This document shows positions 2,793 through 57,600 of a DNA stretch of 60,686 nt, piece after piece. The DNA comes from Bacteroidota bacterium (GTDB lineage: Bacteria > Bacteroidota > Bacteroidia > UKL13-3). Below the pieces are notes generated by a model, which saw only the letters and a program-made list of their open reading frames with translations, searched no databases and was not told the DNA's origin. The stretch spans positions 1 through 60,686 of the forward strand of contig CANJUD010000015.1 in assembly GCA_947477885.1 (NCBI GenBank), written 5' to 3'. The position numbers were made by a program, and so were the translations under genes. The stretch's first letter is position 1. Each line of letters opens with the position of its first letter.

Positions 2793-5700
2793 ATGAAAGC
2801 TATTTTTCTATGGTTATTGTTATGTATCGCTTTTAGTGTATATGCCCAAGAAGGAAATAATTGGGTATTGGGCAAATTTGGAGGTATTGATTTTAACAAT
2901 AACCCGGCACATGCCTTTAAATCTTCCATTTTCAGTTATGATTATAAAAAAGATTCTAACGCTGCGGATTATCCCCAATCCATTTCAGACTGTAAGGGAA
3001 AACTATTATATTATATTGGTGGTGACACTTTTATATGGAACAGAGAACATAAGCTTTTGCCCTCGTACTACTTATTAAAAACAAGGAGCATTAATAACTT
3101 TTTTGTCCCCTCGCCCAATAATGATTCTTTTATTTATCTTTTCAGGGTACGTGGCACTGGATTAGAATATTCTATTATCAATAATTACTTAGACAGTGGC
3201 AGGGGCGATTTTGAAGTTGTGAATCAAAAAGTTACAGACTCTATTGGATATAACACATGCTTTATTAAGCATAAAAATGATACCGATTATTGGATATTGA
3301 CCAAAACGAGTCTTTATACTATACATGCCTATTTGCTTACCCAAACTGGAATTTCTAAAACTCCAGTAATTTCTAATTTTATAGGTTACAAAAGCTGTTG
3401 CCACGGAAATGAACCTTATATACGGACATCCAATAATGGTAAATTTATTGTCTCAACCTATACCGACAGCAATCAATGTATATCCTACAAGCTATACAAT
3501 TTTAACAGGACTACCGGGATGTTGTCGTTCAACCAGGACATAATACCCCTTTCCATTAAGTTTAAAGCGCAGTATGCCCATTTTTCGTTTTCACCAAACG
3601 ATAGCATTTTATATTGCTTAACGACCAAATATCCAAAACTCGATAGTCAAGTTATTTATCAATTACCCACATATGATACTATAAAATTCACACAATCGAT
3701 ACCTATTTATGCAAATGATGGAACAGTCAAATATGGCATAGCTAGATCGCAATTGGGGCCAGATAACCGCTTGTACTTTGGTCTTTCTGCAGACTCAACC
3801 TACCGTGCACTTAGCTATATCAAATACCCTGATTTATGGGGCAAAGGTTGTGAACTTGTATTAGATGGCATCAAATTGCTACAAGGAACAATAGCCTTTT
3901 CACAACAGTTCCCATGTCACAGTTACCCCATCAAAAGAATAAACAACCGTTTTCAGGTAAAAGGGAGCAATACCTGTGGCAGCGATAGTACTATGCAATT
4001 TACTGCAGATGCAGATAGTGCGTTCAGTGCTTTCCGTTGGTATTTCGGAGATGGGGATAGTACAGATGGAAAGAGTGTGTCGCATACCTATAAAGGCGCA
4101 GGAAACTATTATGTGCGATTGGCATGTACCCTTGGGCCCTGTGGTTATAAGCAATGGGTGGGAGATAGTGTTACTGTAAAGCTACAACCTATATTAACTT
4201 TTAATACGCAGAAAAATGTATTATGTGGTTATCAAACCATAGATGCTAGTATTGGTTATAAATATACAGATACTTTGCATATCATATGGGGTGATGGGAA
4301 GGATACTTTAATAATGGGTGGTAACAATAATATACTTGCCAATATCAATTTGCAACATATATATAATAAAAGCGGCAGCTACAATGTAAGTTGCAAAGTA
4401 TGGAATTTCTTCTGTAATGATAGTGCCGCAACAACTTATAATATAGTTGTAGATACTATACCCAAGGCAAGTTTTGCATCAGATTATACTACAACTTGTG
4501 GTGCAAAAACTGTATCACTTTCAGATACTTCAAAATTTGATAGTGTTATAATAAACCGTACTTGGCATACATATAAACCCAGTGGTTTTGATACAAGTAT
4601 TATAACAGGAACTGTTAATAATATGTCTTTCTTATTTAATGATACGGGAGTGTATTCTGTTAAATTACTAATACAAAGCAAACAGGGTTGTATAGATTCA
4701 TTGGAGAAGATTAACTATATACAAATAAACCCAATACCTGTTAGCCAAATAAGTGGCAAAACAAAGTGGTGCGGTGCGGATTCGACTACGCTCACCGTAA
4801 CAGGAGGTATGCGTAATATATGGAGCACGGGAGATACAACGGCATCTGTATTTTTAAAACCTGTAACATCAAACTATTATAGTGTGCTTGTTACCAATAT
4901 ATATAATTGTTCTGTTAAAGATTCGGTTTATATAAGTGTTGGCAAAATTGTAACACCCTATTTCACGCCCAATTATCTCCAAAGCTGTGGAAACAGCGCT
5001 ATCACCCTTATAGATAGCAGTGGCGGTATGGATAGTATTATACAGCAACGAAAATGGACTATATATTATCCTAACAATATCATCAAACAATATGATACAG
5101 TTAGTAGCAACAAACTAAAACTCATTGTACAGGATACCGGTTATTATCATGCCAAACTGATATATATAACGAAACAAGGTTGTATGGATTCATTAACCAA
5201 AACAAATGTATTCCATATACTACCACAGCCAGCTGTATATATAGATAGTCCCAGCCATAACCCTTTGTGCTTTGGGGATAGTTTTGTACTCACTGCAAAA
5301 CAAAAAGATATAAACTACCCACCGCTTGTAAAATATAAATGGAACGCTGGGCCAGTTAATACACCAAGTATTATAGCAGATAGCAGCAACAGTTATTATG
5401 TGAGTGCAACAAATGCCTACGGTTGCGGGGCACAGAGCAATACCGTGAAGATAGATATATTGCCACAATTGTTTGCCAATATTAAAACAGCCAAAGACCG
5501 ATTATATGTAATTGCTACAAGGCCTATTGCTAGTTATACCTGGTATAAAGATAATGTATTATATGATAGTACTTCATCTATTTACTTTCCGCCCACGGGC
5601 AGGTATTATGTGCATGTGGTGGATGGGAATGGGTGTATAGCTAATTCCAATTCGCTACAGCATACTGGTATGAACTACGTAGAGCATATAGATAATTTGA

Positions 5701-5942
5701 TCCGTGTGTATCCGAATCCAGTGAGCGATATGCTGTATATAGAGTACCCTCCCATTCTGGTTGGTGAATACACCAACCAGAGGCAGCAAAGAAATATTGT
5801 AATATATGATATGTTAGGAAAGAAAGTGTATAATACTATCACCAATGGAGAAAGATTATATAGTATATCTATCGGGCATTTGCCTAAAGGGTTATATATA
5901 CTTTCTGTAGGGGAAGAAAAAGTTAAGTTAGCTGTTGAATAA
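2793..5942 (+). CDS. Large secreted PKD/Ig-repeat protein with T9SS sorting domain
   Basis: A 1049-residue protein with a clear signal peptide (ends near VYAQ, residue 19). Residues about 25-370 look like a beta-propeller-like region without a recognised name. A PKD domain (about 390-465, core WYFGDGDSTDG then HTYKGAGNY) follows, then several Ig/PKD-like repeats each with a Cys-Gly or CxxDS pattern. A T9SS type A domain ends the protein (RVYPNPVSD). It starts 2 bp after the previous stop, so the two are probably co-transcribed. The end is duplicated at 1-415, and a palindromic repeat (5757-5780) is translated within the sorting domain. Likely role: surface adhesin or cell-surface structural protein; this is inference. 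Confidence 0.85.
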   Translation: MKAIFLWLLLCIAFSVYAQEGNNWVLGKFGGIDFNNNPAHAFKSSIFSYDYKKDSNAADYPQSISDCKGKLLYYIGGDTFIWNREHKLLPSYYLLKTRSINNFFVPSPNNDSFIYLFRVRGTGLEYSIINNYLDSGRGDFEVVNQKVTDSIGYNTCFIKHKNDTDYWILTKTSLYTIHAYLLTQTGISKTPVISNFIGYKSCCHGNEPYIRTSNNGKFIVSTYTDSNQCISYKLYNFNRTTGMLSFNQDIIPLSIKFKAQYAHFSFSPNDSILYCLTTKYPKLDSQVIYQLPTYDTIKFTQSIPIYANDGTVKYGIARSQLGPDNRLYFGLSADSTYRALSYIKYPDLWGKGCELVLDGIKLLQGTIAFSQQFPCHSYPIKRINNRFQVKGSNTCGSDSTMQFTADADSAFSAFRWYFGDGDSTDGKSVSHTYKGAGNYYVRLACTLGPCGYKQWVGDSVTVKLQPILTFNTQKNVLCGYQTIDASIGYKYTDTLHIIWGDGKDTLIMGGNNNILANINLQHIYNKSGSYNVSCKVWNFFCNDSAATTYNIVVDTIPKASFASDYTTTCGAKTVSLSDTSKFDSVIINRTWHTYKPSGFDTSIITGTVNNMSFLFNDTGVYSVKLLIQSKQGCIDSLEKINYIQINPIPVSQISGKTKWCGADSTTLTVTGGMRNIWSTGDTTASVFLKPVTSNYYSVLVTNIYNCSVKDSVYISVGKIVTPYFTPNYLQSCGNSAITLIDSSGGMDSIIQQRKWTIYYPNNIIKQYDTVSSNKLKLIVQDTGYYHAKLIYITKQGCMDSLTKTNVFHILPQPAVYIDSPSHNPLCFGDSFVLTAKQKDINYPPLVKYKWNAGPVNTPSIIADSSNSYYVSATNAYGCGAQSNTVKIDILPQLFANIKTAKDRLYVIATRPIASYTWYKDNVLYDSTSSIYFPPTGRYYVHVVDGNGCIANSNSLQHTGMNYVEHIDNLIRVYPNPVSDMLYIEYPPILVGEYTNQRQQRNIVIYDMLGKKVYNTITNGERLYSISIGHLPKGLYILSVGEEKVKLAVE

Positions 5943-6069: not shown

Positions 6070-7449
6070 TTACAAACTCTCCAAAAACTTAACCAAAGCA
6101 TCGCGTTCCGCTTTGGTTAGTTTCTTAAAATTATCTTTGGCACTTTGTGCTTCGCCTCCGTGCCACATCACAGCTTCTATATAGTTTCGGGCACGGCCAT
6201 CGTGTAATAAATTTGTATTGCCATTTACACGTTGGTTTAGGCCAATTCCCCATAAGGGCGGGGTTCTCCATTCGTTACCTGTGGCATCAAATTCGGGTCT
6301 TCCATCTGCAAGTGCTAGGCCCATATCGTGCAATAAAAAATCGGAATAGGGGCGGATAATTTGTCCTGATAAAGGTTTGAAAGATACATCGGTTGCAGTT
6401 TCATGTTTATCAGCATGGCATTTCACGCAGCCAGAAACGATAAATAATTTTTTACCTGTTCTTACCGTTTCATCTTTCACATTTCTGCGTGCAGGCACAG
6501 CCAAAGTTTTCATATAAAAAGTCAATGCATTTACGATACTATCGGGCAGTTCAATTTTTCCACCTTGTTGGGTGGTTTCATACTCTATAGGAAATATAGA
6601 AGTAGTAATTCCTATATCTTCATTTAGTGCTTTAGCCACCTGATTTTTTATATTGGGCACCGCTGCTTTCCATCCGATACGTCCTATACAATTACCTTGA
6701 TGTGTTATATAATCATACACATAATTTACTCTCCCCGATATTCCATCACCATTGATATCATTAGGGTCGGCGTTTCTTAATATACTTTCTTCGCTAATTG
6801 CTTCTATTAATCCCATTCCAAAATTAGAACGAGAAACCCGAGGAGAGTATAATACATTTGCAGGCATGGAGGTATATAAGTTTGCAAATTGATATATTGG
6901 TTGGCGTAATTGTACGTCAGTTCCATCTGCTAATTTTTCTGTGATATAATTATAGGTTATCATAACAGTTCCTTCGGGATTAGTTCCTGCTATTGCCTTG
7001 TCTTGTAGCTGCGCGCCATAACCCGGCACAGGCAATGGTGCTCCATGCGTATCAACCCCAGGCACACTCAATTTAAAAAACATCGATTGGTAAGGTTGGC
7101 CGGATAAAGGTGGTGTGCCCCTACCTGCATTAATATGGCAACGAACACAAGAAAGTTGGTTAAACACTGGGCCCAAACCAACCGCAGGCGATGTAGTAGA
7201 AACAGGCACAAAAGTCTTATCAAAAAAACCATCACCCACACCATGCACCCTCCTATCTTCATCTGATAATCCATTAATAACATTTCCAAAAGCTCCGGCA
7301 CTTTCATCAAATACCGTGCAGTCCCCACCACTCATTCTTTCGTCCCATTCACTATCCTCAAGTGCTTGCGGTTTCCTGCATGAGTATATAATACTGGTAG
7401 TTGCAAGTAGGATAAATGCAATGTATATGTATAATTTTGTTTTTATCAT
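6070..7449 (-). CDS. Di-heme cytochrome c lipoprotein, DUF1111/DHOR family
   Basis: A 459-residue putative di-heme oxidoreductase ('thiol oxidoreductase'/peroxidase-like). Lipoprotein signal with lipid Cys24 (IIYSC). Two c-type heme motifs are visible: CVRCH at 101-105 and CVKCH at 341-345. The family lies in the periplasm or on the outer membrane and is often next to imelysin genes, as here (74 bp upstream). It is the last gene of the minus-strand heme/iron locus. Its chemical reaction is not established; a role in redox release or handling of iron/heme is inferred from neighbours. The 3' end contains a hairpin (ccaaag...ctttgg) that is part of the coding sequence. Confidence 0.9.
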   Translation of the reverse strand: MIKTKLYIYIAFILLATTSIIYSCRKPQALEDSEWDERMSGGDCTVFDESAGAFGNVINGLSDEDRRVHGVGDGFFDKTFVPVSTTSPAVGLGPVFNQLSCVRCHINAGRGTPPLSGQPYQSMFFKLSVPGVDTHGAPLPVPGYGAQLQDKAIAGTNPEGTVMITYNYITEKLADGTDVQLRQPIYQFANLYTSMPANVLYSPRVSRSNFGMGLIEAISEESILRNADPNDINGDGISGRVNYVYDYITHQGNCIGRIGWKAAVPNIKNQVAKALNEDIGITTSIFPIEYETTQQGGKIELPDSIVNALTFYMKTLAVPARRNVKDETVRTGKKLFIVSGCVKCHADKHETATDVSFKPLSGQIIRPYSDFLLHDMGLALADGRPEFDATGNEWRTPPLWGIGLNQRVNGNTNLLHDGRARNYIEAVMWHGGEAQSAKDNFKKLTKAERDALVKFLESL

Positions 7450-7523
7450 TCTCTAGTATAAAGTAGTTATATAAGGTATAAAGTAATTCTGCCGTCAGCT
7501 CATTAACCATTTATAATTCATCA

Positions 7524-8591
7524 TTAATTTGTAACCTTAGTTTGTATCAATGGAATCAATTCATCTTCTAATGTTTTTTTCAAATCAGTTAATATCTGCA
7601 CTGTACTTTCTACAGCAGGTCTTTCATTATATATAGCTTTTCCAAACTTGGTGGTATAGGCATTTAAATTATTGAAGGCCGCGTCCATTTTCTGGATGAT
7701 TTTTAAATCCAAAGATTTATTATATAAATCTGTGAGTGCATGCAAACCCGAGCCAGCGGCTGAGTAGCTACACATATATACATTTTTTGCTCCTTGAATA
7801 TTCATCGCAAAATCTTTCCACGAGTTACCTGAGAATGGAGATTCTTCTAGCATAGAATCGATAACAGTATATGGTTCTCCAATTTTCGCTTCGCCCACTT
7901 CACTTATAATACCTATCATGGAATTGGTGATTTCTAATAAAGCTTCTTTGCGTGTTTTATATACACTGGTACTTGTACCCGCACTACTCACTTGCAAAGC
8001 ATAATTTCCACCTTGAGCTTGCCATTCGGTATACATTTGTGCGGTAATAGTTTTGAGATTATCAGCCACTGCCAATAAATAATCTTTCTGACGCGATGTT
8101 AACTCATTGGCTTTTCTAGCACCACCCAAACCAAATATCATATACTCGATAGGATGAAAACCTTTTAAAGTAGTATTCAGATTTTGTATATATGCTGAGG
8201 TAAAAGTATTACTGCTTTTTAAAACAGAATCAATTTCGGTATAGCTTATTGGCCAGTCGTCGATAGCGGGGTCTAGCCCTTTGAATGAGACAGGACCAAA
8301 TAAAAATGCTTCTGATTGTTCCCAGATTTTGCGTGTGGCATACCAGGTTTGTTGGGTTGTATACAAATTCGCATCTGTTGGATTTGCCACAAATGTTTGT
8401 ATACTATTATATAGTTCATTTGATTTATTTGACAAATCCAATAAATTAGGAACTGCAATATGTGTTGGAAAATCGTTTAATATATTCGCTGTAACGGTAT
8501 TCACAGCAGGTACAATCACTTCCGGTTTTCTATGACAAGAAGCTGAAACTAAGATTGCATATAATACGAATATATATAGGTAATTTTTCAT
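7524..8591 (-). CDS. Imelysin-family (peptidase M75-like) lipoprotein
   Basis: A 355-residue lipoprotein (lipid Cys19 after LVSAS). The family signature GxHxxE is present as GFHPIE (residues 144-149). Imelysin-like proteins are iron-regulated and linked to iron or heme uptake; despite the name no protease activity is established for the family. Only 7 bp separate it from the upstream Rieske gene, so they are co-transcribed. Confidence 0.9.
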   Translation of the reverse strand: MKNYLYIFVLYAILVSASCHRKPEVIVPAVNTVTANILNDFPTHIAVPNLLDLSNKSNELYNSIQTFVANPTDANLYTTQQTWYATRKIWEQSEAFLFGPVSFKGLDPAIDDWPISYTEIDSVLKSSNTFTSAYIQNLNTTLKGFHPIEYMIFGLGGARKANELTSRQKDYLLAVADNLKTITAQMYTEWQAQGGNYALQVSSAGTSTSVYKTRKEALLEITNSMIGIISEVGEAKIGEPYTVIDSMLEESPFSGNSWKDFAMNIQGAKNVYMCSYSAAGSGLHALTDLYNKSLDLKIIQKMDAAFNNLNAYTTKFGKAIYNERPAVESTVQILTDLKKTLEDELIPLIQTKVTN

Positions 8592-8598
8592 GTTTTTA

Positions 8599-9027
8599 TT
8601 ATAAGGTGATTACTAGATTTTCCTCGTCTATTGTATAATTTAATTGTTTTAAAGGTAACGCTGCTGGCCCATTTACCACTTTACCATCAGTATCAAAACT
8701 ACTTCCGTGTAAGGAGCAGTTAAAGCCTTTGGAATTAGGGCTAAGAAGCCAATCTTGGTGGGTACATTTCAATACAAGTATTATATATTTTCCATCCTTT
8801 ATTTTGAGCATAATATCATAGTCCAAATCTAAATCTCGAACTAAAATATCTTTTTGAGCTTTCAAACTCAGCAATGGTATTTTTATCTCCCCTTTTTCAT
8901 GTTTTGTTTTAATAACTGGGAACGGGGAACATCCTTCTAAATTAATCATGGCAACAGCTAAGCCCATACCACAAGCAGCATTGCAAGTAAATTTGAGAAA
9001 GTCTTTTCTGTTTAATTGATGTTCCAA
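8599..9027 (-). CDS. Rieske [2Fe-2S] protein
   Basis: A 142-residue protein with the Rieske ligand pattern: C88-T-H90 and C104-S-L-H107 (KCTHQDW ... NCSLHGS), followed by the usual GxV-x-GPAxxPL segment. The disulfide cysteines of the classical bc1 type (CTHLGC/CPCHGS) are absent, so it resembles ferredoxin-like Rieske proteins. The N-terminus (RKDFLKF, then a hydrophobic stretch and GC at 32-33) suggests export, possibly as a lipoprotein. Adjacent to porin (10 bp) and imelysin (7 bp). Probable role: electron transfer for the iron/heme locus; inferred. Confidence 0.9.
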   Translation of the reverse strand: MEHQLNRKDFLKFTCNAACGMGLAVAMINLEGCSPFPVIKTKHEKGEIKIPLLSLKAQKDILVRDLDLDYDIMLKIKDGKYIILVLKCTHQDWLLSPNSKGFNCSLHGSSFDTDGKVVNGPAALPLKQLNYTIDEENLVITL

Positions 9028-9037
9028 TGTATCGATA

Positions 9038-10255
9038 TTAAAAGCTGTAACAAATGCCTAAGTTGATATAATGATTGTTAGTATAATAAGGCAATGCATA
9101 AGGAGGTGGATTAAGAACTAGCTGCTGATTAAACGCTCCATTACTTATATAATGATAATCCAACTTAACACCTACGCCACGATGCGGCATCCAAGTAAAG
9201 CCTGCAAATATATGCTGCTGCGTATAATACTTATTAGCAATTCCATTACTAGGCATTTTGGCATTCATATCCACAAATTCATAACGGGTAAATATATTGA
9301 ACTGTTTATTTCCCTTATGTTTTTTATATAATATATCGTATGAATATTCCGTATACAATCCGCGAGAAGTATTTGCAATATTATTGGAATAAGCGGTGTT
9401 CAGCAAATTTGCATCGGGCACATTAATTTGTACGGCCAACAATTTAAAATGAACTGCTTTCCGACGGTATTGCACATTGGCTTCATTCAAAAATACAGGT
9501 GTACCAAATGACCCAGTTGAAAGCCCCAGCACATCTGCTGATTTATTGTCGACACCAACACTTCCTCCTATATATGAAGAACACTGCAAACGCCATGGTC
9601 CATAATAATATAATAGTGCTGCTGTAATAGCTTTCTGTCTAGCCTGAGCATTACTGCCTTCGCCCCTACCCTCTCTGATGCCTTGGCTTAAACTAAATCC
9701 GGATGCATCCAATCCATTCATTAATGCGATACTATAATTAAAACCCGGCATACTACGCGGACTACCATATAGTGCTACACCCACCTCACGCCAAGTGGCT
9801 GGTATCAGCATAGTTTCAACTACTGGGCGGTCGTTGGCATTAAATGTTGTGGAGAGATGATTCTCATTAATGAGTCCGATACGTGGTGTGAAAAAACCTG
9901 CATTGATATATAATGTTCTGTTAACATCAAACTTTATAAAGCATTGCTCTAAGCTTATTTCTCCAGAGCCTTTACCGTTTTCTACTTTGGCATTTTCAAG
10001 CTCAAGTTCACTAAAGAAACATAACTTATCGTTGAATCTATTACCCACAAACAATACATTCCTTCGCAAATTTGCCAGCCCTAATTTATTGTTTACATCG
10101 TGGGTATATAATACTTCCCCATAACCTGATATTGCTGTGGCCCTATTGCCCTTTAACTGCAATCCTGCTGCCAAGCTATCTTCGTGTGTAATGATTTGTC
10201 CCGAAACTAAAACTGGGATAATGAAGGATAATAATAAAATACTGCGTTTAAACAT
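9038..10255 (-). CDS. Outer-membrane porin-like beta-barrel (OprO/OprP-like)
   Basis: About 405 residues from the ATG at 10255 (MFKRS), chosen because it gives a normal signal peptide ending near VSGQ; an in-frame ATG 27 bp further up would add a charged MPHNKTKGK leader and fall inside the promoter spacing. The mature part has alternating beta-strand character, a YGEVLYTHD-type first strand, and ends in an aromatic residue (GICYSF), as barrels do. Substrate unknown. Position in the heme/iron locus suggests a metal or small-chelate channel. Confidence 0.8.
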   Translation of the reverse strand: MFKRSILLLSFIIPVLVSGQIITHEDSLAAGLQLKGNRATAISGYGEVLYTHDVNNKLGLANLRRNVLFVGNRFNDKLCFFSELELENAKVENGKGSGEISLEQCFIKFDVNRTLYINAGFFTPRIGLINENHLSTTFNANDRPVVETMLIPATWREVGVALYGSPRSMPGFNYSIALMNGLDASGFSLSQGIREGRGEGSNAQARQKAITAALLYYYGPWRLQCSSYIGGSVGVDNKSADVLGLSTGSFGTPVFLNEANVQYRRKAVHFKLLAVQINVPDANLLNTAYSNNIANTSRGLYTEYSYDILYKKHKGNKQFNIFTRYEFVDMNAKMPSNGIANKYYTQQHIFAGFTWMPHRGVGVKLDYHYISNGAFNQQLVLNPPPYALPYYTNNHYINLGICYSF

Positions 10256-10279
10256 CTTGCCTTTCGTTTTATTGTGCGG

Positions 10280-10310
10280 CAAAATTATTATCTAGAATGA
10301 TTCCAAACAA
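10280..10310 (-). promoter_or_regulatory. Bacteroidota-type promoter for the porin-Rieske-imelysin-DHOR unit
   Basis: Minus strand TAATTTTG (10280-10287) matches the -7 box TAnnTTTG; a TTG lies 20 bp upstream (10308-10310). Transcription would begin about 20 nt before the ATG at 10255. It would let the four downstream genes be made separately from the HmuY/TonB genes. Confidence 0.5.
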
Positions 10311-10354
10311 GTTTATTTAGAATATTTCTAAATATATATGTAAAACTCTCAAAA

Positions 10355-11368
10355 TCAACGCATTTTTTTGAACACAAACTTGGGTACACCAGGTTTGCCT
10401 TGTTTGTTGTAATAATCTAAAAACTTCAGTTTAAAATAAACGTTGTTGCCATTACGGATGATATAGTTTCTATTAGAACGAACAGCGTAACGTGACAATG
10501 CAAAATCATAGTACTTCCAATCGTAACCTATTGCATCTTTGTCGTCAGTAAATACAAAGTTTTTTGCAAGTTGTAAATCTATATCACTATACTTATTATT
10601 AGAATCAACAGCACAGGAAACATTATAATGGTTCGAAATAACACCTCTTACCACATAAGGATAAGGTTGGCCCTGATTCATTAAGAAGTCGATATATTTG
10701 GTAATTTTAAAATCCCAATCTTCTTTAGGTGGTTCAAAAAATAAAATTTTCTTGCTGGCAAAACTATAGTGAATGAAATTATAATCCTTATCAAAATTAA
10801 CTTTTTCTTCTATAAAGGAACTTGCAGGCGATTCAAAATATCTCCACCTAAATTTAAAATAACTATTGGTTTTGTCCAAAGGTTGGAAAATAATAAATCT
10901 ATCTTGGGGCCCTGAAGTATCCTTCACATATCTAATAATAAATATATTTTTATGCAAGGTGTTATTAAATCTATCCCAACATGCACTAAATCCTGTACTA
11001 TCAAGTGATCCATGAGGGCGGTCGAATACTAATTTGCTGAGAGCTGGCTTGCTATATTTGTTTAAAAAAGTAGTATCATTGGTATTATACACTGCTATAT
11101 TACTTCCTGTATTTAGTTGTATCCCAAATTTGTTTGGGTCGCAGGCAAAAGATATATCCCATTCATGTATACTTCTGAAAGTAAAATTACCTGTCTCACA
11201 ATCAAAAAATACGACATTCTGAAATGAATCTCCCATCTCAAATTCTTTTACCACACCTTCTGCATTATTTTGCAATTGCCATTCCGGGTCTTTCTTCATG
11301 CATGATTCAACTGTAAGCAAAATCATTGCACACAACAAATATATAATATGTTTAATTGTTAGTTTCAC
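10355..11368 (-). CDS. HmuY-like heme-binding lipoprotein
   Basis: A 337-residue lipoprotein (lipid Cys23 after LTVES). It carries features of the HmuY family: a WDIS/WDF segment, GVISN, and a C-terminal IGYDWKYYDF followed by two beta strands ending KLKF. The T9SS protein at 13420-14748 shares these (WDLVFTRY, GVLHN, IGYDWKTFDF, YKLKF), so the two are paralogues. The start is GTG, whose G is the last base of the TonB receptor's TAG stop (one-base overlap), implying translational coupling. HmuY proteins bind heme at the cell surface and pass it to a TonB receptor; that role is inferred here. Confidence 0.7.
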   Translation of the reverse strand: MKLTIKHIIYLLCAMILLTVESCMKKDPEWQLQNNAEGVVKEFEMGDSFQNVVFFDCETGNFTFRSIHEWDISFACDPNKFGIQLNTGSNIAVYNTNDTTFLNKYSKPALSKLVFDRPHGSLDSTGFSACWDRFNNTLHKNIFIIRYVKDTSGPQDRFIIFQPLDKTNSYFKFRWRYFESPASSFIEEKVNFDKDYNFIHYSFASKKILFFEPPKEDWDFKITKYIDFLMNQGQPYPYVVRGVISNHYNVSCAVDSNNKYSDIDLQLAKNFVFTDDKDAIGYDWKYYDFALSRYAVRSNRNYIIRNGNNVYFKLKFLDYYNKQGKPGVPKFVFKKMR

Positions 11369-13377
11369 TATTTTAGCATTTTAGAAAAATCGTATTTAAA
11401 CGTCATAAAAAAAGTTCTTCCCATACCAATAGGGCTAGAACCAGCTTGCGTATGCGGCCCATCTTTTATAGTTGAGTTTACGCTAGTAATATTTAATACG
11501 TTTTTAACTCCAATTATGAATTGTACATTTTGTTTTGCATATTTCTTATTAAATGAAACATCCATCCATTTCCAAGTATTAATATATGCTACCGCAATAT
11601 TACCATTCTCGTCGTACACATATTTTTGTTGTTTTCCATTAACTTTATAGAAAATCGAAATACTACTATTATATTTTTTGAATTTGTAATCACCACTAAA
11701 ATTAATTTCGTGGTAATAGAAAAACTTATGGTTTAGATTAAAATAATTATTTAATCCTGTTCTTGACAACCCAGTTCTAAAAGTAAATTTTGGACTATAA
11801 TAACCCACTTGTAAAGTGCCGCCCTTGCTGGCAAATTTGTCAATATTTATATACTTATTTATATTGCTAGTTGCATCTAACTGTAACAAGGTTATCATAT
11901 TAGTTAACCTATTATAAAAAGTTGAAACATCGATTTTAATAGAGCGTTCTTTTTTGATTGGCCTGGTATAGCTATAGTTGAGTTGTATATTACCTGAACG
12001 CTCAGCTTTTAAACTATCATTTCCTAAAACGATATGATTGGCATCCACAAAATTAAAAGTAAGTTCTTTAAGCGTTGGGGCACGAAAACCTTTACCCGCA
12101 GAAAAACGAATGACATTGTTTTTATTCAATTGATAACGCAAACCCAGCATTGGTATAGCTGGAACTGTGAAACGTTTATTATAAGCTAACCTAAACCCAA
12201 CTTTTATATCTAATTTTTTGGTGGGCTTATACTCATTATTGAAAAATAATGCATAGTCATTAATATAATTTTTGTTACCGCCAAATTTTTTACCCGCTGC
12301 ATGGTCAGAATTTATATCATATCCAAATTGACTTGTATAGTTTCCTTTTTTATTTTGTCTAATATAGTTCCCTCTTAACTGCAGCAGCGCAAATCGTGTA
12401 GTGTCCTGATTTTCCATATTGGCAGATAAAGCTTGGTCCCCAGTAACCAAATCTTTCACATACTCATTACGTTTACGTTGATAAAAACTATAGGAATTCA
12501 AAAAAACAAGTGCTCCCGTTTTACCCAATTTCCTATCAACTTGCCAAGTAATTTGCGATCTATTGGTGATAAAATGATCATCGATTCCTTTGGCATCAAA
12601 GGGAGTTACAATTGGTGAACCTTTACTGAGTAAAAACTCTCTATAATAGTTTGCCGATATTCTATTTGCGGTTTTACCCAAATTAAAATTACAATATATA
12701 TTCGTAAAATATTGTTCTTTGGGTCTCCACAGCATTTGTCTTTTATATAGATCTTCATTGGGATCCCAGCCATCAAATAAATAGCGGCCAACGCTAATTC
12801 CCAATAATGATTTTTTTATTTTGGTAGTTCCTCCAAGGTCGTAATTATAATTGCCTTTACTATCATGGTAAATATTTGCATTTAGATCATACAAATTTTT
12901 GGAACTCTTTTTAGTAATTAAATTAATCACGCCTGCACTAGCATCGGTACCATATATCACAGACATGGGTCCTTCTATTATTTCAATGCGTTCTATATTA
13001 TTCAGGTTAATTTGATTCAAATCAATATTGCCATCCAACCTTCCTATAATAGGTACCCCGTCCATCAGTATTTTCACTTGGCTCCCGCTAAGCCCTTGCA
13101 CACTAATTCGACTACCCAAAACAGCATCCTGAGTAATACGAAAATTAAGTTCATTGGTGAGCACGTCTCTTAAACTAACTGCTCCCATTTTATCTATTTT
13201 GGCACGGTCAATCACCTTTATCTTTTGTACTGAAAGGTCGACTGTTGTGTTCTTCATTTGCCCAGTAACTACGATGGAATCCAATGGTATTTGGGCATCA
13301 CTATTCCCATATAACAAAAACAAGCAAAGCACCCCAATGAGGTGCTTTGCTTGTAATATATTTTTTATAGCGGACAT
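11368..13377 (-). CDS. TonB-dependent outer-membrane receptor, probably for heme/iron
   Basis: A 669-residue receptor: signal peptide ending near SDAQ; plug domain about residues 30-160 with SIVVTGQ (TonB box region), RISVQGLSGSQVKILMDGVPI and the IERIEIIEGPMSVIYGTDASAGVINLITK signature split around residues 115-155; then a 22-strand-type barrel ending in F-K-Y-D-F. Its position between two HmuY-like genes suggests a HmuR-like heme receptor, but no ligand residues were verified. Confidence 0.9.
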   Translation of the reverse strand: MSAIKNILQAKHLIGVLCLFLLYGNSDAQIPLDSIVVTGQMKNTTVDLSVQKIKVIDRAKIDKMGAVSLRDVLTNELNFRITQDAVLGSRISVQGLSGSQVKILMDGVPIIGRLDGNIDLNQINLNNIERIEIIEGPMSVIYGTDASAGVINLITKKSSKNLYDLNANIYHDSKGNYNYDLGGTTKIKKSLLGISVGRYLFDGWDPNEDLYKRQMLWRPKEQYFTNIYCNFNLGKTANRISANYYREFLLSKGSPIVTPFDAKGIDDHFITNRSQITWQVDRKLGKTGALVFLNSYSFYQRKRNEYVKDLVTGDQALSANMENQDTTRFALLQLRGNYIRQNKKGNYTSQFGYDINSDHAAGKKFGGNKNYINDYALFFNNEYKPTKKLDIKVGFRLAYNKRFTVPAIPMLGLRYQLNKNNVIRFSAGKGFRAPTLKELTFNFVDANHIVLGNDSLKAERSGNIQLNYSYTRPIKKERSIKIDVSTFYNRLTNMITLLQLDATSNINKYINIDKFASKGGTLQVGYYSPKFTFRTGLSRTGLNNYFNLNHKFFYYHEINFSGDYKFKKYNSSISIFYKVNGKQQKYVYDENGNIAVAYINTWKWMDVSFNKKYAKQNVQFIIGVKNVLNITSVNSTIKDGPHTQAGSSPIGMGRTFFMTFKYDFSKMLK

Positions 13378-13387
13378 GGATTTTATA

Positions 13388-13412
13388 ATATAGTTTTAAT
13401 TAGAAACTATAT
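13388..13412 (-). promoter_or_regulatory. Intercistronic hairpin between T9SS HmuY gene and TonB receptor
   Basis: Perfect 9-bp stem (atatagttt / aaactatat) with a 7-base loop, occupying most of the 42-bp gap between the two genes. There is no U-run after it, so it is more likely an mRNA-stability or partial attenuation element than a full terminator. It could set a high secreted-protein to receptor ratio. Confidence 0.45.
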
Positions 13413-13419
13413 AAAAGTA

Positions 13420-14748
13420 TTATTCAATTACCAACTTCTGTGTTTGTTGGTTATTGCCGCACTGTATATTTACCATATATAAACCTTTACCTAAATTTTC
13501 AGTAGGTAAATTATAAGCATTGAAACCGTTATTTTTTGTTTGTTGGTTATATATCAATTTACCGCTTAGGTCATATATATTAATTTGCATGGTGCTTAGT
13601 TTCTCAGTATTCACATATAACTGAGTATTACCGTTTGAAGGATTTGGCGACAAGGTATATACAAATTTATTTTCGTCTATAATATTTACTGCAGTATTAA
13701 AAATCAACATTTTCTGTGTTGCAAAAGCTACCTTGCCATTGGCACCACCACCAAAACCTGTGAACTTTAATTTATATATTTCATAAGTAACGCTACCATT
13801 TAACTCGTGGCGTGAATTTAGCACAACATAAGTAAGTGAATCGCCCAATACATATTGATTCGAATTAAAATCAAAAGTTTTCCAATCGTAACCAATGGTA
13901 TTAATCTTGTCGCTAAATCTACTGTCCATGGTATCAGTTACAGAAACAGCATCGCATAATTGGTTTTTTATTTTGATAGATTTAGTTTGTATATTGTGAA
14001 GCACCCCTGTTACCTGATAGTAGGGTGTTGTAGGATCGTTTTGTTTGGCAAAATAACGGGTAAAAACTAAATCCCATTTATTATTATCTGGCTCACGTTT
14101 TAGTTCCATATCCTTTTCTAAATTATAATACATAAAATGATTTTTCGGATAATTGTTGTCCATTAAAGTAACGGTAGTATCACCTGTTCCATCCAAATTT
14201 GCATATCTGAATGTCCATGACTTCACACCTGAAACTGATTTGCGGGCAACCACATAAAACTTCTTAGCCCAAGGCTGTGCTGGAGGATTGGGATTGGCAT
14301 ATATTACAAAGATTGAATCGCCATCAATTTCTCCAGGTACATTACTATTATACACACCCCACGAATAATAAGGATGCATAGATGAGTCTCTGCACAAAGC
14401 ACCATCAGCCCATTTCTCGTCGCTATTAAAAAACCTACGCCATGATTTCCAACCGCTGGTATCAAAAGTAGACCAACCTGTGATATCGCTATTTGGATAT
14501 TTGGCCACGCGAACATCATTTGAATGATTTGCCAATATTGCATAATACATGGCATCTTTGCCACCTACTGCACTAAAGGCCAAATGCCAATTGCGAATAG
14601 GCACGGTGTCAACCATTTTATCTTTTAATGAATAATACACTTCGTTGCGATATTTAGGGCCAAGGTAAACACTATCATATACCCAGTTCTGGGCATAGGT
14701 GTTAAATGCTGTAAAAGCTAATAGTGAGAATAAAAATTTTTTGATCAT
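13420..14748 (-). CDS. HmuY-like protein exported by T9SS (candidate hemophore)
   Basis: A 442-residue protein with a signal peptide (ends near TYAQ) and a T9SS type A sorting domain in the last 80 residues (YTLSPNPSNGNTQLYV, YDLSGKLIYN, GKGLYMVNIQ). Between them lies a HmuY-like region with the same landmarks as the lipoprotein at 10355-11368. The known HmuY is a lipoprotein, so export and release or anchoring through T9SS is unusual. First gene of the locus; 42 bp upstream of the receptor. Predicted role: capture heme outside the cell for the TonB receptor. Confidence 0.75.
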   Translation of the reverse strand: MIKKFLFSLLAFTAFNTYAQNWVYDSVYLGPKYRNEVYYSLKDKMVDTVPIRNWHLAFSAVGGKDAMYYAILANHSNDVRVAKYPNSDITGWSTFDTSGWKSWRRFFNSDEKWADGALCRDSSMHPYYSWGVYNSNVPGEIDGDSIFVIYANPNPPAQPWAKKFYVVARKSVSGVKSWTFRYANLDGTGDTTVTLMDNNYPKNHFMYYNLEKDMELKREPDNNKWDLVFTRYFAKQNDPTTPYYQVTGVLHNIQTKSIKIKNQLCDAVSVTDTMDSRFSDKINTIGYDWKTFDFNSNQYVLGDSLTYVVLNSRHELNGSVTYEIYKLKFTGFGGGANGKVAFATQKMLIFNTAVNIIDENKFVYTLSPNPSNGNTQLYVNTEKLSTMQINIYDLSGKLIYNQQTKNNGFNAYNLPTENLGKGLYMVNIQCGNNQQTQKLVIE

Positions 14749-14807: not shown

Positions 14808-14815
14808 CAAAATTA
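14808..14815 (-). promoter_or_regulatory. Possible -7 box for the heme/iron locus
   Basis: Minus strand TAATTTTG, about 60 bp before the ATG at 14748. The nearest -33-like word (CTTG at 14841-14844) is 25 bp away, longer than usual, so this is weak. I saw no Fur-like inverted repeat. Confidence 0.3.
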
Positions 14816-51667: not shown

Positions 51668-54600
51668 TTACTCTCTCAACAACTTAACTGGCACACTCGA
51701 TTTCCCGCCGTCGGTATCTATATATAATAAGTATAGTCCATGAGCAAATTTACTTAAATCAAGTGAAGTGTTTAAACTATTATTAGTTATTGCTTGCGAT
51801 TCTTGCATTAATAATCTTCCAGTCATGTCTGTTATTCTGAGTGAAACACGAGTAGTATTCACAGTAGCTATAATGTTGAAAGTGCCATCGCTGCTTGGGT
51901 TTGGCCACACTCGCAAAGTAGGAGTATTATATATATTTGCGATACCAATATTATTGTAATTATATGCTACTGATGAAACTGATAAGCATCCAAAATTGTC
52001 AGTATACTCAACAGTATAAAATCCTTTTTGCATAGGTATATAATAATTAACAGCTGTGTTTGCAACTGTATTACCGGCCAATTTCCATATATATGATAGA
52101 CCAATTGAGGGAGATGCAAAAAGTGAATCCCCCTGCTGGGTAATAACAGGAGTTGTAGGTGTATGGAAGGTATAACCATTGGCTGATGAAGTAGCAGTAC
52201 ATCCATTTGAATCGGTAATGGTAACAGTTACTATAGCGGTTTGTTTGAGTGTAATAGTTGGTGTGATTTCTGTGGTGCTCCAACTATATGTTTTGGCAAT
52301 TCCAGCAGAAAGTATTATACTATCTCCATTACACAAATCTTTTGGTCCGCCCGGGGTAATATTTGCATTGAGGGCAGGATATACATCTACGCTTACTATA
52401 TTACTACTATCACTTCCACAAACAGTGGTTACCATTGCACGATAACTGGTTTTTGCAGTAGGCGAAACAGTATAGTTACTTGAAGTATTTGTGGTATTTA
52501 TCCATGACGTTCCGTTATAATACTGCCATATAATAGTTCCTGTATTTCCAGTAAGCATTAGGTCTGTGGAACCACCGGGACAAATGCCGGGAGCCTTTGC
52601 GGATGCGCTACCACCAACTGCTTTAGGGTTGATACTAATTGATATAGTTTTAGATGTGTCACTTCCACACTTTCCACTTGTTACGAGTGCACGATATGAG
52701 GCAGTGGTTGTGGGAGAAACATATATATTATTTGCTGATGAATTTAAATTCTGCCAACCGCTACCATTGTCATATTGCCAAGCTATAGAACCTGTATTAC
52801 CTGTTAAAGCCATAAAGACCGAATCGCCTGCACAAAGATTTGAAACCGAAGCAAAAATACTTCCCGACACTGCGGGAGGAGTAACCGTGACACTGACAGT
52901 TTTAGAAGTATCTGTTCCGCATGTACCTGCTGTTACCAGTGCTCTGTAATCAGTATTGGTGGTTGGGGAAACATATATACTATTTGCAGTTAAACCGAGA
53001 TTTTGCCAAGTGCTGCCATTATAATACTGCCAAGAAATTGTTCCTGTATTATTTGATATAGTTAGGTTCACTGAATCACCTTTGCATATACTTGTATTTG
53101 CAGAAATATTTCCTGCAACTGCTTTTGGATTTACTGTTATAGTAACTTGGTTTGATGAATCGGGAGAACATGCACCAGATGTTAGATAAGCTCTATATAA
53201 AGTTGTTGCTGATGGTGCGATTCTGTAAGGATTAGCAGATGAATTTAAATTTATCCAAACATTATTACTATAATACTGCCATGCAATAGTTCCTGTGCTG
53301 CCTGATAGTGATAAGTCGATAGAATCACCACCGCATATATTATTTGTAGATAATGATGCAGTGCCCCCAACAGCTTTTGGACTCACTGTTATAGTGGTTT
53401 GATTTGATGAATCGTTGGGACAAGTTCCTGATGATACATAAGCTCTATATGTTGTGGTATTTGCAGGTGCAACTTTATATGGATTTGCTGATGACCCTGT
53501 GCTTGTCCAAGCACCCGCTGATAAATATTTCCATATAATATTTCCTGCACTTCCTGAAAGGGTTAAGCTAACGGAATCGCCCGCACATATATATGATGCA
53601 GACAAGCCCGCAGTGCCGCCTACAGCTTTTGATGATATAATAACTGCAACGGCCGCTGAGGTAGTTGTTTGACTATATGAATCTGTCACTTTTACGGTAA
53701 TAGAATCTGTTCCCGCTGCAGAAGGACTATAATATAATGAATCATAAGGATGTCCTTTGCCTGATTTTAATAACGTGCTTCCATTCTTATACCAACTATA
53801 AGTATATCCAGTATCATAAGCAGTGGTGAATTGTTGTCCGCTTCCCAAACAAAAAGATATATTGCTTTGAGGTAAAATAACAGGATTGGGAGGAGAAACA
53901 ATATCTATAGTATAATCTTCACATTCGCCAACATCAAAAGCATTGGTGTTAGCCACAAAGCAAGGATTAAACTTGCATGCTCCTGTATAAAAGTAATAGT
54001 AGTAGCCCGACATTATACGCAAACGATATGACCCTGCTGCTTGCGAAGATGGCACTGTAAATTTAACAGTATCCACAGATTTATGATATAAATTTCTACC
54101 TATTTCCTCTACCGAATCAAACACCCCATTGGCATTCCAATCCACCCAAGCCACCGTTGCCTGAGGATAGGTAGCAGCTGTAGAGCCCGGTGTAACATAT
54201 AACTTATAACTACTTCCTGCAATTAAGTTTGCATTATAAGCAGTGTAATCACTATAATATGTTGGTGTAGTTTTAGGGACACCTGATGAATTATTTAAAT
54301 TACTAAGTTGTACATTGGTGATGCCCCATTGATATGAAGCATTATAATAGTTAATCGCACCACCTGTGGGTATACAATAATCAATTTTTCTGTTGCCATA
54401 AGGTGCAGCAGTATCGGGAGCATAGCTTGTGGAGTTGAGCGTAAATGCAGTACATGTAGCATCTATATAGTTTCCAATTTTCGCTGATGAATTTACATCA
54501 TAACTCACCCAGAAATAATTGGGTCCCGATTGTAAAGCTATAGAATCTGTAAACGTTAGAGCTGAACTTCCGGGACTTGAAACTGTACTTCCATATTGTT

Positions 54601-57600
54601 TGGTGGTATTAAAATTTGAATCGGTGCCGGTATACCACACTTTGGCATTTTTTATATTGGCAGTATCGGTGGTGCCGGTGGTATAGTAAGTAATTGATTT
54701 AACAGCTAGCGGGAAGGCTGCACCTTTGGTATTTATTATAATATGTATTACGTCATTATTCGTAGTATTTGGTTGCACAGCTTTCTTGTTTTGTATATTA
54801 TTTGCAGATATATATGATTGACTTTTTGCAGTATCAACCTTGATTATATAATCTTCCGTTTCACCATATATAAATTGAGAGCAGGCAGAATTGGCATACG
54901 CAGTATAATAATCAAATTTAATTCTTACTTGATGTTTTCCTACAGGAGTAGAAGCTGGAACTGCAAATGATCCAACAGCTTTCAAACTTGTGGTTAATTG
55001 ATTTGCCACTACACGTTCTACTGAATCAAATTGGCCATCATTATTTACATCCAACCATATATTCAAATATTCTGCATATACATAAGAAGTCACACTATAG
55101 TTTACATACTCGCCTTGATTGGTGGTAGTGGTAGAACTAATATTTGTAAAATCAGAATACGAAGTGCTACTGCATCCAGAAGTATTACTAATTGAATCTA
55201 AAACTACATTACTAATATACATATAACACGGATAGGTAGAAGTAGGAGGAATACAATAATATATTTTTCTATCTCCACTTGGGTTATTGGTATCGGGAGC
55301 ATAAGTAGTATTGCCAATAGTTATTGAATCGCAGCCTGCATCCACATGGTCAGTTAATTTTGCATAAGAAGGTATATCATAAGTCAACCAAAAATAATTA
55401 TATCCAGATGAAGTTAATACCATCGAATCGATGATGGAGAATTTATTTCCGGGATATATAATTGTATTTCCAAACTGCGTAGTAGCCGCAAATACTGAGC
55501 TTGAGCCAGTATACCAGAGTTTTGCATTTCTAATTTCACTGGTGTCTGTAGTGCCATTAGTATTTAGTTGAAATGATTTGATAGGTAGCGGATTTGATGC
55601 CCCAAGTGTATTAATTTTAATTCCGATGATATGATTATTGCTAGTGTTTTTTGCAACATTAGTTGAATTTTGTGTAGTAGCAGATGATATATAATTCATA
55701 CTTTTTGCTGTGTCAACATTTAACATATAGTCTTCTGTTTCGCCATAAGCCAATGTTTTACATGGATCATTCACATACGTATAATAATCGCACGCAATCC
55801 TTACCAGATGCTGTCCCACACTGGTGTTAATAGGCACCGCAAAAGTTCCTGTTGCTTTAAGTCCGGTAGATAATTGATTCTTCACTACCTGCTCAGCTGA
55901 ATCGAACAAACCATTATTATTAAAATCAACCCAAATGGTTACATACATATTATATTGATATAATGATACACTGTAATTAACCATATCACCTTGAGAAGTT
56001 GTGGTACTCAAACTTGAAAAATCAGAAAACGAAGTAGAGCTACAGCCAGAATTATTATTAATAGAATCGAGTTTCACATTGTTTATATACATATATACAC
56101 ATGCATAGGCAGCAGTATTGGGCACACAATAATATATTTTGCGGGTGCCATAAGGATTCACTGTATCTGCTGTATAAGTGGTGCCTGCTATAATAAATGA
56201 ATCACAACCTGCATCTAATAAATTGCCTAAAGCTGCAGTGGCAGTAATATCATACGCAAACCAAAAATAATTATATCCTGATGAAAGTGTAACAGAATCG
56301 TTGAAAGATACATTGGAGCCTGGAGTAGAAACTGTACTTCCCACCTGTGTGGTAGTTGCAAATGTAGAACTTGTGCCCGTATAATATACTTTGGCATTCG
56401 ATACATCTGAAATATTTGTTGTGCCAGTTGTATTCAAATATAAGTTAGTTAATTTTAATGGATTTAGTGAACCCCAAGCATCTACTTTAATTCCTATAAT
56501 TTGGTTATTGCTACTTGATCTGGAAACATTGGGTGTAATTTGAAATACATGAGCAGAATTATATACCATATTACTTTGTGCCATCACATGGGCGGTATAG
56601 TCTTCTATCTCGCCATAATAACCATCTGCACATGCATCGAGCGATATATATTGATAGGCATACTGATGACGTACACGCATGCGGTGGTAGCCTATATTTG
56701 ATCCCGATGGAATAGCGATAGTGGTATTACCAGTTCCATTTGCAGTAACAAAATATTTATCCAATAATCTTTCGTTTGTATTATTGAAATTTCCATCATC
56801 ATCAAAATCTATCCATACATTTATGTATGCCGCATAGGTTGTAACCGAAATGGAAGTATTATAAGTAATTCCCTGTTCAAAATTCACGACCTTATTGGTA
56901 TAATCATTATATGCTTTCGAGTTGCAACTTGTACCTGTATTATTTGCTAAATTAGAAACTTCAATATTACTAATACACATGCCACCATAATAGCAACCAT
57001 AAGTCATCGCTGGGATGCAATAATTTATGAGTCGATACCCGGCAGGAGCTGTTATTATAGGTGTTACCACAGTATCTACATCAATGCTTGTACATTCTGC
57101 ATCGAGTGAATCACCCACTTTTGCAAAGGAATCTATATCATATACCAACCAAAAATAATTGTCACTATTATTCACCAATTCCTGATTTCCAGTAAAAGTA
57201 AAGCTACCAGATGGAGAAGTTTTGGAACTTCCAAATTGTGTGAGCGTAGTAAAGGTAGTTCCCACACCTGTATAATATAATTTTGCATTGGTAATATCTG
57301 CAACATTTGTAGAACCATTGGTATTAAATGTAAAAGAAAAAGCGGTATCTGTAGCATTACATGCAGGGGTTACATTAATTCTCAATATCACATTATTGAT
57401 AGTACCGGGAGAAATATTTTGTGTATTTTGTTGTAATACTGCCGCCGTTTTGGTTGCTAAATCTGACCCCAAACCTACAGCATGCCAAGCCGCTGCACAG
57501 GCAAACATTTCATTGGAACAGGTGCCGAATAAATCTTCGGCGGCTTGTATTGAATAAGTGCGTGCATCATCATATTGTGCTGATGAATATAAATAATAAG

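Follow-up and report, generated by a model that had tools for sequence, protein, structure and literature searches.

The seven co-directional genes at 6070-14748 of the window, the whole stretch of 60,686 nucleotides that was analysed, probably form two operons, a trio that acquires heme for use as a cofactor and a Fur-repressed operon that handles iron. The trio (14748-10355) varies the known Hmu/Hfp systems by combining a HmuY-fold T9SS protein and a HmuY lipoprotein with one TonB-dependent receptor.

Gene order and transcription units

The first-pass annotation had described a single locus of seven genes on one strand in a stated order. The ORF calls for the window bore out the strand and the order, all seven ORFs being located on the minus strand (Table 1). 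The one-base overlap of the lipoprotein and receptor genes was also found to be real: the stop codon TAG of the receptor gene and the GTG start share the G at 11368. However, the single locus resolved into two units. The lipoprotein and porin ORFs are separated by a 72-base gap, and because this gap carries promoter-like and operator-like sequence of its own, two transcription units, the trio and the porin/Rieske/imelysin/di-heme operon, are likelier than one. For both candidate -7 elements, TAnnTTTG was presumed to be the promoter consensus.

Table 1. Features of the two predicted operons and their upstream regions (window coordinates)
Feature	Position	Strand	Basis
Candidate -7 element of the trio, TAnnTTTG type	14808..14815	-	read directly from sequence
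T9SS-tagged HmuY-fold protein, 442 aa (leader about 1-19; HmuY-like domain about 20-350; type A sorting domain about 358-442)	13420..14748	-	TIGR04183 and PF18962, model, fold matches
TonB-dependent receptor, 669 aa, FRAP-His-GN.L stretch	11368..13377	-	PF07715, PF00593, motif
HmuY-family lipoprotein, 337 aa, GTG start	10355..11368	-	PF14064, model, Cys23
Perfect inverted repeat TTTAGAA-N3-TTCTAAA, predicted Fur-type operator	10316..10332		sequence, relatives
Second repeat copy, two mismatches	10291..10307		sequence; shared with one of the two relatives in the genus
Candidate -7 element TAATTTTG of the porin operon	10280..10287	-	read from sequence
Porin-like protein, likely true start ATG 10255	9038..10282	-	weak PF07396; start region
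Rieske [2Fe-2S] protein, CTH and CSLH motifs	8599..9027	-	PF00355 2.5e-8, over cut-off
Imelysin-family lipoprotein-like protein, GxHxxE as GFHPIE	7524..8591	-	PF09375 4.1e-53, over cut-off
Di-heme oxidoreductase (DHOR), CxxCH at residues 101 and 341	6070..7449	-	PF06537 2.3e-90, over cut-off

The proposed identities of the Rieske, imelysin and DHOR proteins were supported by profile matches over cut-off, whereas the porin match was weak and below cut-off (PF07396, 17.9 bits against 20.9). The start region of the porin-like protein at ATG 10255 (MxKR) is conserved in relatives. The imelysin with GxHxxE adjoins a di-heme peroxidase, which is the mark of an imelysin/di-heme iron operon, and the second operon would accordingly be an ICMP/Efe-type iron-handling unit to which porin and Rieske genes have been added. 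As far as the available text of PMC3143127 describes them, ICMP and EfeUOB-type operons likewise contain a GxHxxE imelysin by a di-heme peroxidase under predicted iron control, but in the operon studied here a porin-like and a Rieske gene come first. In Bizionia argentinensis, genes for a Rieske protein, a cytochrome c and an imelysin-like protein depend on MliR and are co-controlled with iron uptake genes; this likeness is by description only, in the available part of PMC9478572, and MliR belongs to a different regulator class from the Fur type predicted here.

It is unlikely that all seven genes serve one pathway, in which heme captured by a released hemophore would be transferred and imported and its iron released by redox reactions of the Rieske and DHOR proteins. 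As here, the trio and the four genes lie side by side on one strand in the two further genomes of the genus, and parts of the neighbourhood recur elsewhere, with the four genes beside the trio but divergent in L156 and with porin and Rieske genes directly upstream of the trio in L204 and L215. However, among the 40 inspected family regions the four-gene operon adjoins the trio only in the source genus, and three other genera carry the four as an operon at a distance from it. Moreover, imelysin orthologues were strong in only 6 of the 64 family genomes, whereas the T9SS-HmuY gene was found in nearly all of them. Because the four-gene operon stands alone elsewhere and has its own operator-like repeat, one seven-gene pathway was dropped as the main reading. 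The suggested redox release of iron from heme also found no support, as imelysin and di-heme peroxidase genes are commonly paired in iron uptake in general (PMC3143127, available text).

Two HmuY-fold proteins

Most of what is known of HmuY-type proteins concerns lipoproteins from anaerobes of the mouth and gut. It had been proposed that one HmuY-like protein of the locus is a lipoprotein and that a second carries a T9SS signal, and both proposals were confirmed at the level of profiles and predicted structures. The lipoprotein matched the HmuY profile PF14064 (E 1.9e-11, 44.7 bits against a cut-off of 27), and its lipobox cysteine was kept in 53 of 54 aligned lipoprotein rows. Its structure model (pLDDT 93.1), for which Foldseek directly listed HmuY relatives, aligned with eight HmuY-family entries at Z 12.2-15.2, the next entry reaching 4.7. 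In the T9SS protein, Por_Secre_tail PF18962 and TIGR04183 were both over cut-off, the latter with 50.6 bits (cut-off 23) over residues 367-441 at the protein end. Against seven HmuY-family structures, residues 19-350 of its predicted model (pLDDT 87.0) scored Z 11.1-13.8; residues 358-442 matched the fold of T9SS C-terminal domains. Both proteins flanking the receptor were thus predicted to fold as HmuY, with Z of 11-15 to its solved relatives.

For the T9SS protein, HmuY emerged only when the Foldseek top 1000 were realigned; in the plain search, the top 50 included no HmuY and consisted largely of T9SS domains and of chance matches to sheet-rich proteins. Since the fold matched but the Pfam profile search with PF14064 gave no match up to E 1, this protein is called HmuY-fold and not a Pfam HmuY member. 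It is homologous to the lipoprotein by BLASTP (E 7e-11 over 154 aa). A profile search for the T9SS component SprA gave a SprA_N match in the source genome.

Two separate routes to the cell surface are proposed for the HmuY-fold capture proteins. The first protein would cross the outer membrane through the T9SS and then be either attached to surface LPS, as is described for T9SS type A cargo in the available text of PMC9143113, or released. The second would be an outer-membrane lipoprotein sitting on its TonB receptor. Heme may then be collected by the T9SS protein away from the membrane and passed on to the lipoprotein on its receptor, which would import it. Such a trio would give a defined donor-acceptor pair for testing, and its presence in many, mostly environmental, Bacteroidota would represent a hemophore delivered via the phylum's own secretion system. 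No HmuY-fold T9SS cargo was described in the literature searched, a body that covered few of the subscription papers and some sources in part.

Conservation and iron control

The survey of locus conservation demonstrated that the trio is widely kept and the four downstream genes are not. The order T9SS-HmuY, TonB receptor, lipoprotein-HmuY was found in 38 of 40 inspected family genomes and in 66 of 80 named Bacteroidota loci, two more of which had the order receptor-lipoprotein-T9SS. In two family regions (G004 and G013), the receptor and lipoprotein genes were missing beside the T9SS gene, which also stood alone in L175, L196 and L201, where contig ends were not the cause. The two HmuY types formed two fully supported groups in a quick tree, and their pairwise distances correlated over 40 loci (r 0.83; none of 1000 permutations was as high). 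Judging from these sequence comparisons, the trio is an old module conserved far beyond the source genome. Its recurrent neighbours elsewhere, clustered by single linkage with a Pfam check on one representative per cluster, were heme-linked (HemS/ChuX, CbiX/ferrochelatase-like, PepSY and Peripla_BP_2); the L157 neighbour had no Pfam match. Pfam also gave no match for the L121 protein and for an approximate stretch of L106.

Iron control, which had been expected of the locus, found support for the four-gene operon and for trios elsewhere, but not for the trio here. The perfect repeat upstream of the porin gene occurs with one and no mismatches in the two same-genus relatives, and its only other perfect copy in the source genome precedes feoAB. 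The FUR-family profile had one match in this genome, and we infer from the sequence that the regulator of the repeat is a Fur-family protein. With ample iron, this single detected protein would repress the 10282-6070 operon. The repeat may be a testable iron operator for Bacteroidota beyond the model species. Upstream of the trio in the window, no iron operator was recognised, the best candidate having four mismatches, a score equalled by 46.5% of shuffles. Of 54 named loci, mostly more distant than the source family, 14 had a repeat with at most two mismatches in front of the trio (0.44 expected); in the family, such a repeat preceded the T9SS gene in 2 of 41 sequences. One of the named loci, L207 of the cultured Crocinitomix catalasitica ATCC 23190, has the trio with a repeat that differs at one position, and in the family the trio of G037 has an iron-type repeat.

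Ligand of the trio and fate of heme

The receptor contains a TonB plug (PF07715, 1.5e-21) and barrel (PF00593, 9e-18). Its best NCBIfam profiles were those of B12 (3.2e-28) and heme receptors (1.2e-25), both far below cut-off (for the heme receptor profile TIGR01785, 90.1 bits against 316.85) and resting mainly on the plug, and a search of the PDB placed BtuB higher than heme receptors. A FRAP-His-NPNL-like stretch, which we take to be a mark of HmuR-like heme receptors, is present here as a variant; among the named receptors 54 of 72 had it, as did 28 of 39 from the family, with His in every match.

No invariant His/Met pair that would mark a heme site was found in the 54 aligned lipoprotein rows, and no conserved heme-ligand pair was found in the alignments of either HmuY type or in the family alignment. 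This lack counts against heme acquisition by the trio. Heme ligands vary among the known HmuY members described in the available text of PMC9331221. The T9SS proteins share a single near-invariant His (52 of 55 rows), which is Gly in the source genus; in the family set, just 21 of 41 rows have His there. Within the genus, H55, H75, H125 and H251 of the T9SS protein and H68, H200 and H247 of the lipoprotein are conserved.

Considering the receptor's profile and PDB rankings and the missing ligand pair, together with CbiX-like genes near the trio in 13 distant loci, the trio might import another tetrapyrrole or ligand, such as cobalamin, with re-used HmuY-fold proteins. This is improbable: both folds match HmuY-family structures whose entries name them as binding heme, HemS/ChuX and PepSY genes adjoin the trio elsewhere, an iron-type repeat precedes it in other genomes, and the receptor scores that favour B12 lie far under every cut-off.

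Acquisition of heme as a cofactor is in line with what the genomes encode. Ferrochelatase was undetected in the source genome and in 63 of the 64 family genomes by a search with one profile, which was positive in 8 of 14 controls. The source family therefore seems mostly unable to complete its own heme, and its bacteria should need heme for growth. HemS was not found in the 64 family genomes, nor was CobN-type HmuS (PF02514; positive in 5 of 14 controls) or heme oxygenase in the source genome, which likewise leaves the proposed release of iron from heme unsupported. With ferrochelatase undetected across almost all of the family, and with no match to known heme-degrading enzymes in the source genome, imported heme probably serves intact as a cofactor, for instance in the di-heme protein of the adjacent operon. 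It is conceivable, as a more tentative extension, that the family lost ferrochelatase and lives on heme imported by an old two-stage relay mostly freed from iron control; if true, this loss of control would mean that the relay has changed from scavenging iron to supplying a cofactor steadily.

It is quite doubtful that the trio instead scavenges heme as an iron source, like Hfp/Hmu, with an unrecognised enzyme extracting the iron: the repeats upstream of trios in named loci and in G037 and the iron response of hfpR-hfpY (PMC9331221, available text) are consistent with it, but the trio here has no recognised operator and the searches for HemS, CobN and heme oxygenase were negative.

The trio may be compared with known systems as far as the available texts describe them. 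In the iron-responsive HfpR-HfpY operon of Flavobacterium psychrophilum, a TonB receptor and a HmuY-family protein are likewise encoded without hmuSTUV; unlike the trio, this operon has one HmuY protein and a DoxX-family gene between, and a T9SS-tagged HmuY is not mentioned in that text (PMC9331221). In hmuYRSTUV, the HmuY lipoprotein also adjoins the TonB receptor (PMC12583661, PMC12106395), whereas here a T9SS-tagged HmuY-fold protein precedes the receptor and the genome gave no CobN-type HmuS match. The hmu operon of P. endodontalis resembles the trio in that hmuY is preceded by a gene for a T9SS type A protein, but that protein, compared by description only, is described as beta-barrel-like and perhaps a transporter, not as HmuY-like; its relatives are encoded beside or apart from hmuY and are strongly raised in low iron (PMC11208336, PMC10434189).

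Gene content and predicted folds of the HmuY-like proteins

Seven ORFs were found on the minus strand of the window, from 14748 to 6070, in the gene order of the first-pass annotation. The one-base overlap that it had reported was borne out, since the receptor stop shares a base with the GTG start of the lipoprotein gene. In family searches, the lipoprotein HmuY, receptor, Rieske protein, imelysin and di-heme oxidoreductase (DHOR) all scored above curated Pfam cut-offs, the porin gene matched under its cut-off, and a T9SS type A domain was the sole match of the first protein. Heme proteins are encoded by this organism, among them DHOR, which contains two CxxCH motifs.

Genes and predicted regulatory elements located in the window
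Feature	Position	Strand	Remark
T9SS-HmuY	13420-14748	-	
TonB receptor	11368-13377	-	
Lipoprotein-HmuY	10355-11368	-	
Perfect repeat TTTAGAA-N3-TTCTAAA	10316-10332		between lipoprotein and porin
Second repeat copy, two mismatches	10291-10307		between lipoprotein and porin
Candidate -7 element, Bacteroidota-type	10280-10287		between lipoprotein and porin
Porin	9038-10282	-	
Rieske	8599-9027	-	
Imelysin	7524-8591	-	
DHOR	6070-7449	-	
1049-aa PKD-repeat protein with T9SS type A tail	2793-5942	+	ends convergently with DHOR gene
2487-aa frame	51668-59131	-	near far end of the window

An intergenic REP-like repeat with ATTGCGAGGAGGCTTCCGACG was present in two copies, at about 5985 and 49683, on the minus strand.

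The T9SS protein and the lipoprotein were homologous (29% over 154 aa, E 7e-11), and the structures of both were predicted. In the model of the T9SS protein, which was built with an alignment of 55 sequences (mean pLDDT 87.0), residues 19-350 aligned to PinO, HmuY, BVU_2192, BF2707, BfrB, Tfo and BfrC (Z 11.1-13.8), and residues 358-442 aligned to T9SS C-terminal domains, such as that of mirolase (Z 11.7, rmsd 1.6 over 77). The lipoprotein model (pLDDT 93.1) matched eight HmuY-family entries at Z 12.2-15.2, and the next entry was at 4.7. Against PDB sequences, the lipoprotein alignment reached BfrB (1.2e-10) and HmuY (1.4e-5), and the T9SS-protein alignment reached BfrB/HmuY weakly (0.04); HmuY was not in the Foldseek list alone for the T9SS protein. 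Judging from the predicted models, both proteins flanking the receptor are HmuY-like by fold, as had been proposed.

Conservation of the trio and its relation to known systems

When 64 genomes belonging to the window's GTDB family were searched with the T9SS protein, every one gave a match, with a best E <= 5.4e-32 in 63; the sole match in genome G051 (70% complete) covers residues 26-355 and is probably its lipoprotein. The regions of 40 of these 64 genomes, selected partly on contig size, were inspected, and T9SS-HmuY, receptor and lipoprotein-HmuY followed in that order on one strand in 38 of the 40, the exceptions being G004 and G013. A collection of named-species genomes was scanned with a nine-sequence alignment, which yielded 384 relatives. 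The best 80 of them, mostly from metagenome-assembled Bacteroidota and some from the same family as the window genome, were analysed. Among these best 80, the same trio order was found in 66 loci (one with a split receptor frame) and the order receptor-lipoprotein-T9SS in 2. Of the others, 4 lacked the lipoprotein (contig ends truncate 2 of these), 1, at the start of a contig, had the lipoprotein with the T9SS gene, and 7 had the T9SS gene alone (4 at contig ends).

In a quick tree, the two HmuY types were fully separated. Their pairwise distances correlated (r 0.83, 40 loci, 0/1000 permutations as high), to which shared genome descent contributes. Because of this separation, the correlated distances and the conserved trio, the two HmuY genes are considered an old pair that was inherited jointly.

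In G004, G006, G010, G013, G018 and G062 (L076, L083, L085), the T9SS-HmuY frame spanned 757-802 aa and contained a tandem pair of HmuY-like stretches; in G004 and G013, neither receptor nor lipoprotein adjoined it.

According to the published excerpts consulted, HfpR-HfpY (PMC9331221) and hmuYRSTUV (PMC12583661, PMC12106395) are the systems nearest to the trio. In such excerpts, the hmu operon of P. endodontalis includes a T9SS type A protein, which has relatives elsewhere and is called beta-barrel-like (PMC11208336), and a Prevotella intermedia T9SS gene beside hmuY was up 104-fold in low iron (PMC10434189). The literature search turned up no account of a T9SS cargo with a HmuY fold. The trio is a widespread, new variation on known heme-uptake systems.

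Two probable operons and a predicted iron operator

The porin gene is preceded by its own inverted repeat, predicted to be a Fur-type operator, and by a candidate -7 element of the Bacteroidota consensus type. Both same-genus relatives retain this element and the first repeat, which has one mismatch in one of the two genomes; a single relative retains the second repeat copy. Imelysin matches were strong in 6 of the 64 family genomes (E <= 4.9e-79) and weak in ten more. In the three strong genomes outside the genus, the four genes had the same order in a contig interior, on another contig than the trio. Within the 40 family regions, the four-gene operon followed the trio only in two same-genus relatives. 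Among the best 80 of 384 named loci, it lay beside the trio in the same-genus locus L140, and a full set lay beside the trio in divergent orientation in L156; porin and Rieske genes were directly 5' of the trio in L204 and L215, and imelysin was near it with HemS and PepSY genes in L174. From gene arrangement and the sequence before the porin gene, the seven genes probably form two operons, and the single combined pathway of the first-pass annotation was not upheld. That the two sets adjoin repeatedly speaks for a common role in supplying iron or heme, not for one pathway. The four-gene operon beside the trio is probably an ordinary iron operon. In the excerpts consulted, imelysin paired with a di-heme protein has been known for a long time (PMC3143127), and there is precedent for the joint regulation of Rieske, cytochrome c and imelysin-like genes (PMC9478572).

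Only two perfect repeats were present in the window's genome, preceding feoA-feoB and the porin operon; of its two one-mismatch copies, one lay ahead of an Nfu-type Fe-S gene and one inside a gene. Two-mismatch sites were no commoner than those of the reversed control (51 vs 66 per strand). Over the 64 family genomes, 39 perfect sites were counted vs 10 for this control, with at least one site in 30 genomes. The half-sites resemble operators of the Fur/PerR/Irr class, and a profile search found one FUR-family match in the window's genome. No published account of the repeat as an operator was found in the literature search. In 29 loci (L111-L139), the gene 3' of a perfect repeat was FeoA-like in three, the porin of the four-gene operon in one and T9SS-HmuY in one (G037). 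The others, checked in Pfam by one representative of each, included a 2OG-Fe(II) oxygenase, a TonB receptor and cytochrome c, and several sites had no clear downstream gene. A repeat with <=2 mismatches lay <=300 bases upstream of T9SS-HmuY in 14 of the 54 named loci of alignment A3, vs 0.44 expected from shuffles. Of the 41 family sequences, just 2 had such a copy, and none was found upstream of this gene in the window.

Perfect repeats also lay 5' of similar 262-264-aa proteins in L112, L113, L115, L116, L118 and L135, that of L116 being a 2OG-Fe(II) oxygenase in Pfam.

Proposed heme supply and division of labour

Among the best 80 of 384 named loci, the recurrent trio neighbours, checked by one representative per kind, included a CbiX/ferrochelatase-like lipoprotein (13 loci), two kinds of PepSY protein (a membrane protein in 10 and a ferric-reductase-like one in 6), HemS/ChuX (6) and a periplasmic binding protein (5), a heme-leaning set. 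A FRAP-His-GN.L stretch, a likely mark of heme receptors, was kept by 54 of 72 receptors in the named loci and by 28 of 39 in the family; curated receptor models pointed to B12 and heme alike, with every match under the cut-off. Ferrochelatase (PF00762) was found in 1 of the 64 family genomes (G009) and, when the 45 high-quality genomes alone are counted, in 1; among the 14 control genomes, 8 were positive, including Bacteroides ihuae. Its rarity, though T9SS-HmuY is in nearly all genomes, suggests family-wide heme auxotrophy. Profile search found HemS in none of the 64 family genomes, and CobN and heme oxygenase were not found in the window's genome. With these enzymes and ferrochelatase undetected yet heme proteins encoded, import of intact heme as a cofactor is the simplest reading, and it speaks against the redox iron release proposed in the first-pass annotation. 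The observation in that annotation was confirmed and its interpretation partly supported: the HmuY folds stood, and redox iron release and the one pathway did not.

The lipoprotein cysteine was present in 53 of 54 aligned rows, and in 37 of these 53 it was followed within a few residues by K[DE], which resembles Bacteroidota surface-lipoprotein export signals. Type A T9SS cargo is described, in an excerpt, as surface-LPS-anchored (PMC9143113). The T9SS protein would perform outer capture, and the lipoprotein would perform receptor-side delivery. Among the T9SS-HmuY proteins, a single His is near-invariant (52 of 55 aligned rows; residue 139 of the protein in the window). Gly stands in its place in the window's genus, and other members of the family have Lys, Arg, Asn or Tyr there. 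A possible ligand may have been lost or replaced, and the His-to-Gly change speaks against an easy heme story.

Extra genes lay mostly between T9SS-HmuY and the receptor (L211, L185, L167 and others): the CbiX/ferrochelatase-like lipoprotein in 13 loci, PepSY_TM_like_2 in 10 and DUF6686 in 8.
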